A stretch of DNA of 64,000 bases from assembly GCA_026014595.1 (NCBI GenBank), contig JAOZHY010000038.1, forward strand, positions 1 through 64,000, written 5' to 3'. A program made the translations under genes and the position numbers. Positions 8,238 through 58,745 of this stretch are shown here, piece after piece; positions within the stretch are counted from its first letter, which is position 1; every line of letters starts with the position of its first letter. Origin of the DNA: Candidatus Bathyarchaeota archaeon. Its GTDB lineage: Archaea; Thermoproteota; Bathyarchaeia; Bathyarchaeales; Bathycorpusculaceae. The notes under the pieces are model-generated. The model had not been told where the DNA came from. It did no database searches and was given only the letters and a program-made list of their open reading frames with translations.

Positions 8238-8345
8238 TGGTGCCGGGGGCGGGATTCGAGCCCGCGACTTCTGGGTTAGGGCGTCTGGTCCCTTTTCTCT
8301 CCAGATTATGAGTCTGGCGCCCTAGCCAGGCTAGGCTACCCCGGC
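8238..8345 (-). tRNA. tRNA-Met (CAT, elongator type) with an apparent intron
   Basis: On the minus strand the acceptor GCCGGGG pairs with CCCCGGC before A73, and CCA is encoded at 8240-8238. The D arm (GCCT...GGGC), the anticodon arm CCAGA-CTCATAA-TCTGG with anticodon CAT and the T arm GCGGG-CTCGAAT-CCCGC are all clear. The acceptor and anticodon loop match archaeal elongator tRNA-Met; the initiator-type GGG/CCC anticodon stem is absent. Between the anticodon stem and the T stem there are 35 bases instead of about five, so roughly 30 bases look like an intron near position 43-46. No second TCTGG exists that would allow splicing at 37/38. Exact borders are not resolved. Confidence 0.88.
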
Positions 8346-48843: not shown

Positions 48844-51081
48844 CTGTCGAAGGAACGGGTCGTTAACGGTCTGAAATCGTTCGGGAGACTGCGCATCCAA
48901 ACAAGCCATGCATCAATAATCTGTTATTCGGCTTTACTGCTTATACTCTTCGTATCTTTCACTATCCGTATTCTGCCCATACGCTGGGAAATCCCCTCAG
49001 GTACCGTGCGCCTCAACGAGTTCGACCCCTACTACCAGTACAGCATCACGAATCACATGGTTCAGTATGGTTTGCTTTCGCCTTATTGGCCTACACCTTG
49101 GATAAACACTCAGCAGTGGTATCCCGCTGGGCTGGACATGGCTACTTCTCTGCCTGCCTTGCCAATGACCGCAGCAACACTCTACACCATCGTATCCTTT
49201 TTTGGAGTGAACATTGACTTAATGTCGTTCTGCTCCATCCTGCCCGCCGTGATGGGCACACTTGCTGTCCTAGTACTTTATTTGGTCGGCAAGGACATGG
49301 GCGGCAGAGCAGTTGGTTTGCTCGCTGCACTTTTTCTAGGATTGGCGCCGTCGTTCTTACAGAGGAGTGCACTAGGATTCTTTGACACCGAGGTTCCAGG
49401 AGTGCTGGCGCTTGTGCTTTTCATTTTCCTGTTCTTGAGGGCAATCGAAGAAACCAGGCCGCTGCGTTCATGTTTAATGTATTCTTTAGGAGCCGGAGCC
49501 ACCTTAGCATACTTCATTTTAGGCTGGGGTGCAGCATACTACTTGCTTGGTTTAACAGCACTTTTCGTTTTTGTCTTAATCTTGCTAAAAAGATATAGCC
49601 AACGCTTGTTGCTCAGCTATAGCGTAAGTTTTGGTATAGGGCTTCTTATCGCTACAAAATTTCCATACATATCCCTTAATTATTTAACGTCTGGGGCAGT
49701 TATACCTGTCGCTGGGGTTTTCGTCTTGCTTGTCCTATCGGAAATTCTGCGTAACAACATATCAGCTAGAACGAAAGCCACTTTGACAGCTGCATCATTT
49801 GCCGTGATAATAGGCGGTTTCGCTTTATTGTGGATATTCGGTGACATATCAAATATAGCGGGGAAATTCATCAGCGTAATAGATCCATTTGCTCGCGCAT
49901 CAGCGCCTCTCATAGAGTCAGTAGCTGAACATAGGATTTCGTCTTGGGGAAACATTTACTTTGACTTAGGCATAAGCATCCTGTTCTTTATTGCAGGTTT
50001 GTATTTCACTGTGCGGAATCCAACTAACAGAAACGTGTTCTTGCTTATTTTCAGCTTAACCTCGCTTTATTTCGCGTCCTCTATGGTGCGCTTGCTGGTT
50101 ATTTTCGCTCCAGCCTTCAGCCTACTAGTAGCCGTTGGGGTGCTTGGCATACTGAAACCGTTCTATACTCTGTTGCGAGAAGCACCGCAACTCGCCGTTA
50201 AATCGAAACGCAAGCTAGAGCGAGTAAGTAAAGAATACAGTGAAATAGCTGTTTTCCTGATTTTCATCATACTAGTCACCAATCTTGCTTTTTCACCCCA
50301 AACTGGCGGAGTGCCAAGGGTTTACGGTCAAGCCTATACCCCTTTAACGATTAGTGCATCCAGTCTTCCAATAGTGCCTAGCGACCAGATACCGGAATGG
50401 CTGGATATGCTCAGCTGGACCAAAAGCAATCTCCAGTCAACGACTGTTGTATGTGCTTGGTGGGATTATGGGAACTGGTTAGGCTACCTTGGCAATGTTA
50501 CAAACTTGGCAGATAACACTACGGTGAACGGCACGCAGATAGAAAATATAGGCTTCATATTCATGGCTAACGAGACACAAGCGCTGAAAATGCTGCAGCT
50601 TTACGACGCTAAATACATCCTTGTCTTCACCGTTCTCGCTATAGGACAATCTGGTCAGCAACTCGTAGCTACTCCTGCCAATCTCGGAGACGAAGGCAAA
50701 TGGATATGGATGGCCAGAATCTCAGGGCAAGCACATGACAGACTAATCAAGCAAGGTTTCATAAGCGCACAGGACATGTGGACAGATGAAAAACCTTTCG
50801 GCTCTGTCAACAACCAGACCAACAGGTTCCAATGGAGCGACAAAGGAATGAACTCAACGGTATACAAGCTGATGAGCACTGCATGGAAGCAATGGGAAGA
50901 CACTTCAGGCTCGCCGTCGGGCATAACTTTAAGCGAAACGGCGGTCGCGCCTACCTATTTTAAGCTGGCATACATCACAGGTGCGAACGTACCATACTAT
51001 AAATACGGTGGCCTCATACCTCTGGTGGCTCTGTACGAAATTAACTATCAAGCCTACTACAACGCTACAGGAACAAGCTGA
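48844..51081 (+). CDS. aglB: AglB/STT3-type oligosaccharyltransferase
   Basis: The catalytic subunit that transfers a lipid-linked glycan to Asn in N-x-S/T sequons on the outer face of the membrane. About 745 residues from CTG 48844. The first membrane helix lies near residues 26-45; the metal-binding EFDPYYQY follows with D61; the C-terminal WWDYG box is at residues 539-543. About a dozen membrane segments occupy the first two thirds. The first ATG/GTG/TTG in frame is GTG 49006, but it would delete helix one, which must precede D61. GGAGGAAGG ends seven bases before CTG 48844, so that codon is the probable start. The GlcNAc-1-P transferase-like gene follows after 18 bases. Confidence 0.93.
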   Translation: MSKERVVNGLKSFGRLRIQTSHASIICYSALLLILFVSFTIRILPIRWEIPSGTVRLNEFDPYYQYSITNHMVQYGLLSPYWPTPWINTQQWYPAGLDMATSLPALPMTAATLYTIVSFFGVNIDLMSFCSILPAVMGTLAVLVLYLVGKDMGGRAVGLLAALFLGLAPSFLQRSALGFFDTEVPGVLALVLFIFLFLRAIEETRPLRSCLMYSLGAGATLAYFILGWGAAYYLLGLTALFVFVLILLKRYSQRLLLSYSVSFGIGLLIATKFPYISLNYLTSGAVIPVAGVFVLLVLSEILRNNISARTKATLTAASFAVIIGGFALLWIFGDISNIAGKFISVIDPFARASAPLIESVAEHRISSWGNIYFDLGISILFFIAGLYFTVRNPTNRNVFLLIFSLTSLYFASSMVRLLVIFAPAFSLLVAVGVLGILKPFYTLLREAPQLAVKSKRKLERVSKEYSEIAVFLIFIILVTNLAFSPQTGGVPRVYGQAYTPLTISASSLPIVPSDQIPEWLDMLSWTKSNLQSTTVVCAWWDYGNWLGYLGNVTNLADNTTVNGTQIENIGFIFMANETQALKMLQLYDAKYILVFTVLAIGQSGQQLVATPANLGDEGKWIWMARISGQAHDRLIKQGFISAQDMWTDEKPFGSVNNQTNRFQWSDKGMNSTVYKLMSTAWKQWEDTSGSPSGITLSETAVAPTYFKLAYITGANVPYYKYGGLIPLVALYEINYQAYYNATGTS

Positions 51082-51099
51082 TGCTGAGGACGCGATAAG

Positions 51100-51972
51100 T
51101 TGTTTCCAAAAGTTCCCGACCAACACAAGCCAGGAAAACCTTTAATTCCAAACGGGTTGGGCGTTTTTTACGTCCTATTTGCCACAGTCTACCTTTTCTT
51201 TGTTTACCTAATGGGTATAGACCGCTCGGCAAATGGCGTTTCATCGCCGCTGACTTTCGCTGTATGCATCTTGTTCGGCGGTTTCATGGGCTTGCTCGAT
51301 GACTGGATGGACCTAAAATGGCGCTACAAAGCCTTTATGCCGTTGATTGCAGCGTTGCCGCTCATATACTTGGCGATTGAGAACGGTTTGCGAACTTCAA
51401 TCACCGTGCCTTTCATAGGTGTGCTACAGTTTTCTCCTCCAGACGTATACTATTTCCTAATAATTCCCTTAATCGTCATGATAGTCACCAACACCGTAAA
51501 CATGCTGGGCGGACTAAACGGTTTAGAAACAATCTGCCCCGCCATAGTCCTAATTGGACTAACGACTATAGCATCTCAAACATCCCAAATTCTTATAATT
51601 GGGCCATTAATTATGTGGCTTATCCTCGCGGCGTTGAATGTTCAAGGAAAAATCTTCGTCGGAAACACCGGGTCATTCGCCATAGGAATGACGATAGCCT
51701 CGTTCGCGGTGATTACAGACTTGAAATCAACCCTTTTGATTTCGATTCTTCCCTACGTTTTCAACTCAGCCTTGATACTTTTAACCATATTCTTCTTGAA
51801 GAAACGGGCAAGCCTCTCCATGACAGGTGGCAAACTCGTATCTGACCATCGGCGAAGCTTAGTCACTCTTATAACTTATCGACGACCCTTAACTGAACGC
51901 CAAGTGGTTGCCATAGTGTCAGTAATTTTTGTGGTGTTCACCACGATTGCCGTGTTCACAGGGCTTTTCTAA
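51100..51972 (+). CDS. GlcNAc-1-phosphate transferase-like enzyme (polyprenyl-phosphate linked), N-terminally short
   Basis: A polytopic membrane enzyme of the MraY/WecA/DPAGT1 (GT4-like) family that loads a sugar-1-phosphate onto a polyprenyl phosphate carrier. DDWMDLKWRYKA near residues 67-78 is the Mg-binding DDxxD-like motif, NTVNMLGGLNGLET near 128-141 and FVGNTGSFAIG near 186-196 are conserved, and SDHRRSLV near 249 closes the active site. At 290 residues it lacks the usual first membrane helix; the frame cannot extend upstream because stop codons lie close. It follows aglB by 18 bases, supporting a shared role in N-glycan assembly. Confidence 0.85.
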   Translation: MFPKVPDQHKPGKPLIPNGLGVFYVLFATVYLFFVYLMGIDRSANGVSSPLTFAVCILFGGFMGLLDDWMDLKWRYKAFMPLIAALPLIYLAIENGLRTSITVPFIGVLQFSPPDVYYFLIIPLIVMIVTNTVNMLGGLNGLETICPAIVLIGLTTIASQTSQILIIGPLIMWLILAALNVQGKIFVGNTGSFAIGMTIASFAVITDLKSTLLISILPYVFNSALILLTIFFLKKRASLSMTGGKLVSDHRRSLVTLITYRRPLTERQVVAIVSVIFVVFTTIAVFTGLF

Positions 51973-52034: not shown

Positions 52035-52131
52035 GATAAGCTTAATAGTTTATCTGCAGTGCATATGCAAATGGCGGGTAGGTGGACCTCCACCCGTTCC
52101 GCCAAAGAAACCCCGGTGTAGGAGGTGTATG
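52035..52131 (+). promoter_or_regulatory. Structured leader with a possible SD-sequestering pseudoknot (candidate riboswitch)
   Basis: TTAATAG at 52042-52048 would start transcription near 52072. The RNA then begins with GGCGG (52073-52077) pairing with CCGCC (52099-52103), and inside it GGTGG (52081-52085) pairs with CCACC (52090-52094), loop ACCT. After an A-rich joint (AAAGAAA), the ribosome site GGAGGT (52121-52126) is complementary to ACCTCC (52086-52091), the loop plus two stem bases. The hairpin loop could therefore pair with the ribosome site, as in H-type pseudoknot riboswitches. It controls a QueT-like transporter. A palindromic GATAA ... TTATC flanks the promoter (52035-52054). Confidence 0.55.
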
Positions 52132-52132
52132 A

Positions 52133-52681
52133 GTGAAGTTTGATAGTCGAGATGTTACTTCGACCGCTGTGTTTGCGGCTTTGTACGTGGTCATAAACGT
52201 GGTTGAGTCCTTTGTTGTCGGCAGTCCAGTGTTCACGTACGGTCCAGTGCAACTACGCGTGGCTGACGCCTTGATAGCTTTGGCGGCTTTGTTCGGCTGG
52301 CCTGTGGTCGGCGGGGTCACCTTAGGCTGTTTCGTGACTAACGCGTACTATTTCCTCGGTGCTCCAGACGTGGTTTTCGGCCCCATAGCCAATCTGGTTG
52401 CTGCTTATCTGATAATGCGCCTCAGGAAGCGCCGTTTGCTGGCGTGCGTGGTCGGCGCGTTGCCCATAGGCTTAATCGTCGGCGGCTACCTTTGGCTGTT
52501 CTTTCCGCCGCCAGAAATTCTGGGCGCTTTCCCAGCGTGGGCAGGAATGATTGTCAGCATAACCATCAGCAGCCTCGTCGCCATAGCAGTCATAGGATAC
52601 CTGCTACTCTCAGCACTCAGCCGCCCAGGCATCCTAGAACCGTTAAAGTCTCGCGGACTAAAAGTCACGTCTAAAAAATGA
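52133..52681 (+). CDS. QueT-like ECF-type membrane transporter component
   Basis: A 182-residue membrane protein resembling the QueT family, proposed S components for uptake of queuosine precursors. The N-terminus VTSTAVFAALYVVINVVES is a membrane helix with the alanine-rich groove, and GPVQLRVADALIALAALFGWP near 43-63 is the family signature. Five to six hydrophobic helices are present. Archaea make archaeosine and not queuosine, so the true ligand (preQ0, queuine or another compound) is open. The GTG start has GGAGG seven bases upstream, part of the structured leader. No ECF ATPase subunits are in the window. Confidence 0.75.
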   Translation: MKFDSRDVTSTAVFAALYVVINVVESFVVGSPVFTYGPVQLRVADALIALAALFGWPVVGGVTLGCFVTNAYYFLGAPDVVFGPIANLVAAYLIMRLRKRRLLACVVGALPIGLIVGGYLWLFFPPPEILGAFPAWAGMIVSITISSLVAIAVIGYLLLSALSRPGILEPLKSRGLKVTSKK

Positions 52682-58649: not shown

Positions 58650-58745
58650 TGGCGGGCCCGAGGGGATTTGAACCCCTGTTCTTCGGCTTTCTTCCGCCTG
58701 TGCGCCCGGAGGCCGACGCCTTAATCCGTGCTGGGCAACGGGCCC
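58650..58745 (-). tRNA. tRNA-Arg (CCG) with a 17-base intron
   Basis: On the minus strand the acceptor GGGCCCG pairs with CGGGCCC before G73, and CCA is encoded (58652-58650). The T arm AGGGG-TTCAAAT-CCCCT is complete. The anticodon stem TCGGC/GCCGA encloses a 24-base loop beginning CTCCGG: anticodon CCG follows T33, and the exons give the loop CTCCGGA once 17 bases (GCGCACAGG ... GAA) are removed after position 37, the usual archaeal intron site. The pattern matches archaeal tRNA-Arg. Confidence 0.93.

Follow-up and report, generated by a model that had tools for sequence, protein, structure and literature searches.

The three bacterial classes of preQ1 riboswitch have been reviewed without the word archaea (PMC11625349). 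According to the same review, it was likewise upstream of queT that classes II and III were discovered, and the control of queT through a pseudoknot between a loop and the Shine-Dalgarno (SD) sequence is a known bacterial logic (PMC11625349). Here we analyze a leader that has the look of an archaeal riboswitch not described before, located upstream of a QueT gene in the window (the whole stretch of DNA that was analyzed, 64,000 nt of a “Candidatus Bathyarchaeota” contig). A sequence-only reading of this region had interpreted the leader as a possible translational riboswitch; both the loop-SD pairing and the QueT target hold, and the interpretation is supported overall. At the gathering threshold no Rfam class matched the leader, with nothing relevant for the copy in the window at E ≤ 10 and only chance matches to other families for a divergent member, and among open-licence papers on archaeal or preQ0 riboswitches we found neither a description of this element nor an archaeal counterpart.

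Architecture of the leader

The leader described earlier corresponds to a single element of 58 nt (52071 to 52128), directly 5′ of the QueT gene and, like all its parts given below, on the forward strand. The whole conserved leader, predicted to comprise aptamer and expression platform, scored 78.4 bits (E 1.8e-19) in a genome search with covariance model R1, which includes this copy among the sequences used to build it. The leader is real, far beyond chance. The minimum free energy (MFE) fold of 52035 to 52135 had a z-score of -3.5, none of 200 shuffles folding equally well, and the consensus P1-P2 hairpin pattern occurred once in the window and not at all in 100 shuffles.

The two nested helices proposed from the letters, GGCGG/CCGCC and GGTGG/CCACC, were found in their places. 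The outer one, P1 (52073 to 52077 with 52099 to 52103), covaries, with compensatory changes from GC to CG, AU, and UA, while the inner one, P2 (5′ strand at 52081 to 52085, GUGG in most relatives; 3′ strand at 52090 to 52094), is indicated by both fold and covariation. The hairpin loop and the first two bases of the P2 3′ strand make up ACCTCC (52086 to 52091), the 5′ strand of the pseudoknot or anti-SD, which therefore overlaps P2 by two bases. Its exact complement is the SD, GGAGGT (52121 to 52126), which is the 3′ strand of the pseudoknot judging from its sequence and the partner-swap test (see below).

Candidate pocket nucleotides are the GU that follows P1 (52078 to 52079), invariant in alignment A2, and the joining segment CCGTT 5′ of the P1 3′ strand (52094 to 52098), also invariant in A2 and showing some variation in distant members. 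The linker that leads from the P1 3′ strand to the SD, usually of 14 to 20 nt and with no consensus helix, contains the conserved A-rich/C-rich stretch AGAAACCCCGG (52106 to 52116; consensus AUAAACCCCGG). Its AAA-CCC-GG is invariant in A2, and the GG becomes AAAA in a few distant families. The consensus of the aligned homologous leaders can be written as GGCGGGUGAGUGG-N-CCUCCACCCGUUCCGCC-N-AUAAACCCCGG-NNGUAGGAGGUG. Two further pairings were rejected. One, between the conserved CCCC and the SD, appeared in the nested MFE fold, and the CCCC stays constant while the SD changes (e.g., L114 and L160); the other, between the CCG of the joining segment and the CGG of the linker, fails in families with the linker AAACCCCAAAA.

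Upstream, a TATA-like box, CTTAATAG (52041 to 52048, forward strand), is by eye a near match to the box of the homologues. Among 96 homologous leaders, TTTAWW boxes form a sharp peak 31 to 35 nt upstream of P1 (37 boxes in the 5-nt bin from -35 to -31, against 0 to 9 in the other bins). From the usual archaeal spacing, the transcript start is predicted ca. 25 nt past the box, near 52066 to 52072, so that the RNA would begin about at P1 and the aptamer would be the 5′ end of the mRNA. Thus, of the interval 52035 to 52135 that had been proposed as the leader, the placement of the helices near a transcript start agrees with this prediction, whereas the first ca. 30 nt (52035 to 52065) are probably promoter rather than RNA, given where the box peaks. 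A hairpin that the MFE fold shows at 52035 to 52054 was dropped from the RNA on the same grounds, as it is probably untranscribed promoter DNA.

Covariation of the helices and of the loop-SD pairing

Both P1 and P2 covary, as does the pseudoknot. In 94 distinct sequences, 96% of the P1/P2 cells were paired and seven of the nine pairs had two-sided changes, with 31 two-sided cells compared to 4.1 in shuffles. The covariation score was 0.156 against 0.067 in shuffles and was reached by none of 500 of them, although the alignment had been fitted to P1 and P2 and is biased in their favor; slid controls gave far lower values. In eight sequences the closing pair of P1 changes from G-C to C-G.

For the loop-SD pairing no register was fitted. 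Instead, the best helix between each loop and its own SD was compared with those obtained after swapping the SDs among leaders; since all SDs are GGAGG-like, swapped pairs already score well and only the excess counts. Matched pairs scored 16.9 and swapped ones 15.3 ± 0.18 (z = 9.0, 0/20,000). Relatedness of the sequences inflates shuffle statistics, an effect only partly removed by taking one leader per taxonomic family (26 leaders; 17.9 versus 14.8, z = 7.9, 0/100,000). The complementarity of ACCTCC to the SD, noticed in the sequence-only reading, is therefore not only exact in the window but kept by compensation among relatives. A lack of conservation or covariation in homologous leaders had been named beforehand as a result that would refute the idea, which passed strongly: the leader is conserved, and covariation was found for P1/P2 and for the loop-SD pairing alike.

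In several leaders the helix is replaced as a whole (loop/SD): UUUCCGA/UCGGAAA in L114, GCCCCCU/AGGGGGC in L150, CCACC/GGUGG in L024, UUGCCUCC/GGGGGCAA in L119, and UUCCUCCC/GGGAGGAA in L023. A new pairing, GCUCCG/CGGAGC, was seen in L160 and represents an independent confirmation, because the model that found this leader contains no pseudoknot. The weak match L153 was left out of the pseudoknot evidence.

Distribution within the phylum

A search for the same leader in related archaea had been proposed as a check, and the leader proved widespread. With the QueT protein as query, homologues were retrieved from 53 of 61 related genomes, and the same leader preceded nearly all of them, with proteins down to ca. 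33% identity; one such relative (L031) comes from a “Candidatus Bathyarchaeota” MAG. Within the class Bathyarchaeia, covariance model R1, whose only helices are P1 and P2, detected the leader in 183 of 257 genomes, and it also had matches in families outside the class. For a further model (R2), 98 matches were used and the pseudoknot was again left out; it detected the leader in 79 of 398 genomes over the phylum, the one phylum that our distribution searches cover, with matches in seven families outside the class (f30, f43, f46, f47, f52, f55, and f71). A genome with the leader usually has a single copy and sometimes two.

Six leaders (L115, L148, L150, L151, L152, and L160) form a variant subclass with the linker AAACCCCAAAA in place of AAACCCCGG and with a weak or missing P2; this may be a minimal form, or its ligand preference may differ. 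An exact-pattern scan of viral contigs gave three matches, when about four were expected by chance according to our estimate, and these were rejected; their model scores are weak or absent, no QueT gene lies close to any of them, and the surroundings of two (L156 and L157) are phage structural genes.

Genes downstream of the leader

The gene following the leader in the window (52133 to 52681, forward strand, GTG start) encodes a QueT-family transporter, an ECF S-component (PF06177, E 3.1e-25), which agrees with its earlier description as a queuosine-precursor-type transporter. The association is general, as the next ORF was QueT in 95 of the 98 leader loci. Of the other three, two had flanks too short to judge, and in the third (L118) the leader heads an unknown protein of 239 amino acids followed by QueC. 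QueC, the preQ0 synthase, is part of leader-headed operons in at least 25 loci, L118 included. A place before pathway genes for synthesis or import is one of the features expected of a 7-deazaguanine-sensing riboswitch.

At L118 (genome G535) the leader spans 201 to 257 and the ORF 267 to 986, with QueC at about +900. The 239-amino-acid protein looks membrane-like by eye, had no Pfam or NCBIfam match, and is a candidate for a new transporter of preQ0 or a related base. The order leader-QueT-QueC-QueT, with divergent QueT paralogues on either side of the synthase, was found in three loci (L017, L019, and L023; the QueC of L019 was identified as TIGR00364 and PF06508) and suggests two substrates or split roles. 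In a genome of the same genus (L018, G001:C37:56688-57228), an intact leader precedes an interrupted QueT, with pieces in different frames and one in-frame stop; this genome has a second leader (L102) heading an intact QueT-QueC operon.

Over the phylum sample, QueT was present in 186 of 398 genomes, among which were 75 of the 79 leader-bearing ones (lists compared by reading). The four leader genomes without QueT include one with the leader at a contig end (G405) and the one with the L118 arrangement. The QueT genes of eight sampled families (f28, f34, f35, f39, f45, f48, f57, and f73) had no such leader, so that the element does not simply come with any QueT gene.

The genome to which the window belongs carries a TGT gene, and no QueC match was detected in it (genome ca. 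89% complete), which makes preQ0 salvage by QueT plausible. Elsewhere in the window, genes for N-glycosylation, an STT3/AglB-like oligosaccharyltransferase followed by a glycosyl transferase family 4 gene (49006 to 51972), lie directly upstream of the QueT unit, and two tRNA genes on the reverse strand (8241 to 8345 and 58653 to 58745) have lengths, 105 and 93 nt, compatible with introns.

Proposed mechanism and alternative explanations

We consider it quite probable that the element is a cis-acting riboswitch for a free 7-deazaguanine base, with preQ0 as the likeliest one, and that it turns translation OFF by means of an H-type pseudoknot. The covariation of P1, P2, and the pseudoknot, the identity of the SD, and the gene association were observed. 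We infer the ligand, its pocket, the mutual exclusion of P2 and the pseudoknot, and the OFF direction as follows. The 5′ end of the RNA would lie a few nucleotides upstream of P1. In the ligand-free state P1 would form together with the competing hairpin P2, which, by holding part of the anti-SD, would leave the SD free for translation of QueT (and of QueC in operons). Binding of the ligand among the conserved joining segments (GU, CCGUU, and AAACCCCGG) would stabilize the pseudoknot, whose anti-SD/SD pairing would keep ribosomes from starting, and import and synthesis of the precursor would stop.

Since P2 shares at least two bases with the anti-SD, P2 and the pseudoknot would compete; nearest-neighbor estimates average about -5 kcal/mol for P2 hairpins and about -10 kcal/mol for pseudoknot duplexes. 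In the nested-fold calculation the SD is on average only ca. 36% unpaired even without the pseudoknot, which leaves the ON state somewhat blurred. Several distant members (L151, L152, L115, and L150) have a weak P2 or none, and the switch between P2 and pseudoknot may thus not be universal. The universal core is P1 plus the pseudoknot.

The alternative that survives best is a protein-bound translational operator, in which a 7-deazaguanine-responsive regulator or a pathway protein would bind the hairpin or pseudoknot and block the SD while the RNA senses nothing. Structure and SD pairing would fit this equally well, and the core is unusually conserved (alignment A2). However, genomes carry about one copy of the element, nearly always at queT or queC and across many families, an unsystematic look found no accompanying regulator gene, and in bacteria the queT leaders with a loop-SD pairing bind their ligand directly (PMC11625349), all of which makes protein binding unlikely in our view.

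As to the ligand, gene context is what led us to choose preQ0 as the most likely one rather than preQ1, because QueT-QueC operons are among those headed by the leader and because preQ0 serves archaea for making archaeosine. Archaeal TGT puts preQ0 into position 15 of tRNA (PMC11298593); archaeosine synthases act on the preQ0-tRNA, and the free archaeosine base is reported to be unstable (PMC5485725). The product of QueC and substrate of arcTGT would accordingly be the natural feedback signal. The same pseudoknot mechanism might respond instead to archaeosine base, to guanine or another purine, or to preQ1 taken up from bacteria, given that QueT/QrtT relatives vary in substrate (PMC11130926); with a preQ0-making QueC in the same operon, arcTGT using preQ0, and the instability just mentioned, we give this still less credence than a protein operator.

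Two explanations are left with hardly any probability. Nested inverted repeats at a fixed distance from a TATA-like box could be a transcription-factor site just downstream of it, a DNA operator already disfavored in that the loop covaries with an SD ca. 30 nt away and the conserved segments are asymmetric and run on into the SD. An SD hairpin that is unregulated or responds to temperature (RNA thermometer), in which SD pairing alone would bring about the temperature dependence, has no need of a ligand, of the conserved unpaired segments, or of so strict a pathway association, and is just as improbable.

Comparison with known riboswitches

The riboswitch reading, with preQ0 as ligand, places the element next to several described classes. 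One of similar size (about 58 nt) is preQ1-II (RF01054), found upstream of queT/COG4708 in Bacillota, which likewise has the SD wholly within the pseudoknot helix and acts on translation, as proposed here. Its covariance model did not match the archaeal element and its consensus differs; its linker from the P1 3′ strand to the SD contains a P4 hairpin, which the archaeal linker lacks, and only the latter element is archaeal and has a nested P2 overlapping the anti-SD.

With preQ1-I (RF00522, types I to III) it shares the H-type pseudoknot, an A-rich 3′ linker (L3, here AUAAACCCCGG), and the control of queCDEF and queT genes, and type III also pairs the SD. Distant members in which only P1 and the pseudoknot remain (L115 and L150 to L152) resemble this minimal bacterial fold. 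However, this model did not match either, and the archaeal element is longer, with an extra P2 and a conserved CCCCGG. In preQ1-I, bacterial only in the review, the P1 3′ strand is preceded by UC or AC (PMC11625349), while the archaeal element has GUU with the last U conserved. PreQ1-III (RF02680) is also a pseudoknot upstream of queT, but of ca. 100 nt and five helices with the platform far from the pocket, and it gave no model match to our 58-nt element. The SAM-II and SAM/SAH riboswitches follow the same loop-to-SD H-type pseudoknot logic, with other genes and another consensus, and no Rfam match connects them to the archaeal leader.

On the best reading, the element differs in structure from all three bacterial preQ1 classes and works by the same kind of mechanism. 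We lean, with somewhat less assurance than for the riboswitch itself, toward a class confined to archaea that evolved independently of those three, the first with preQ0 as natural ligand (for archaeosine, not queuosine) and with a pseudoknot that captures the SD. Archaeosine is a nearly universal tRNA modification of archaea, and such a class would give a direct handle on its regulation, mark QueT as a salvage route, and point to metabolite-controlled translation in the uncultured Bathyarchaeia. Compared with the bacterial classes, it would be a separate solution to the sensing of 7-deazaguanines, with a fully covarying pseudoknot that captures the SD.
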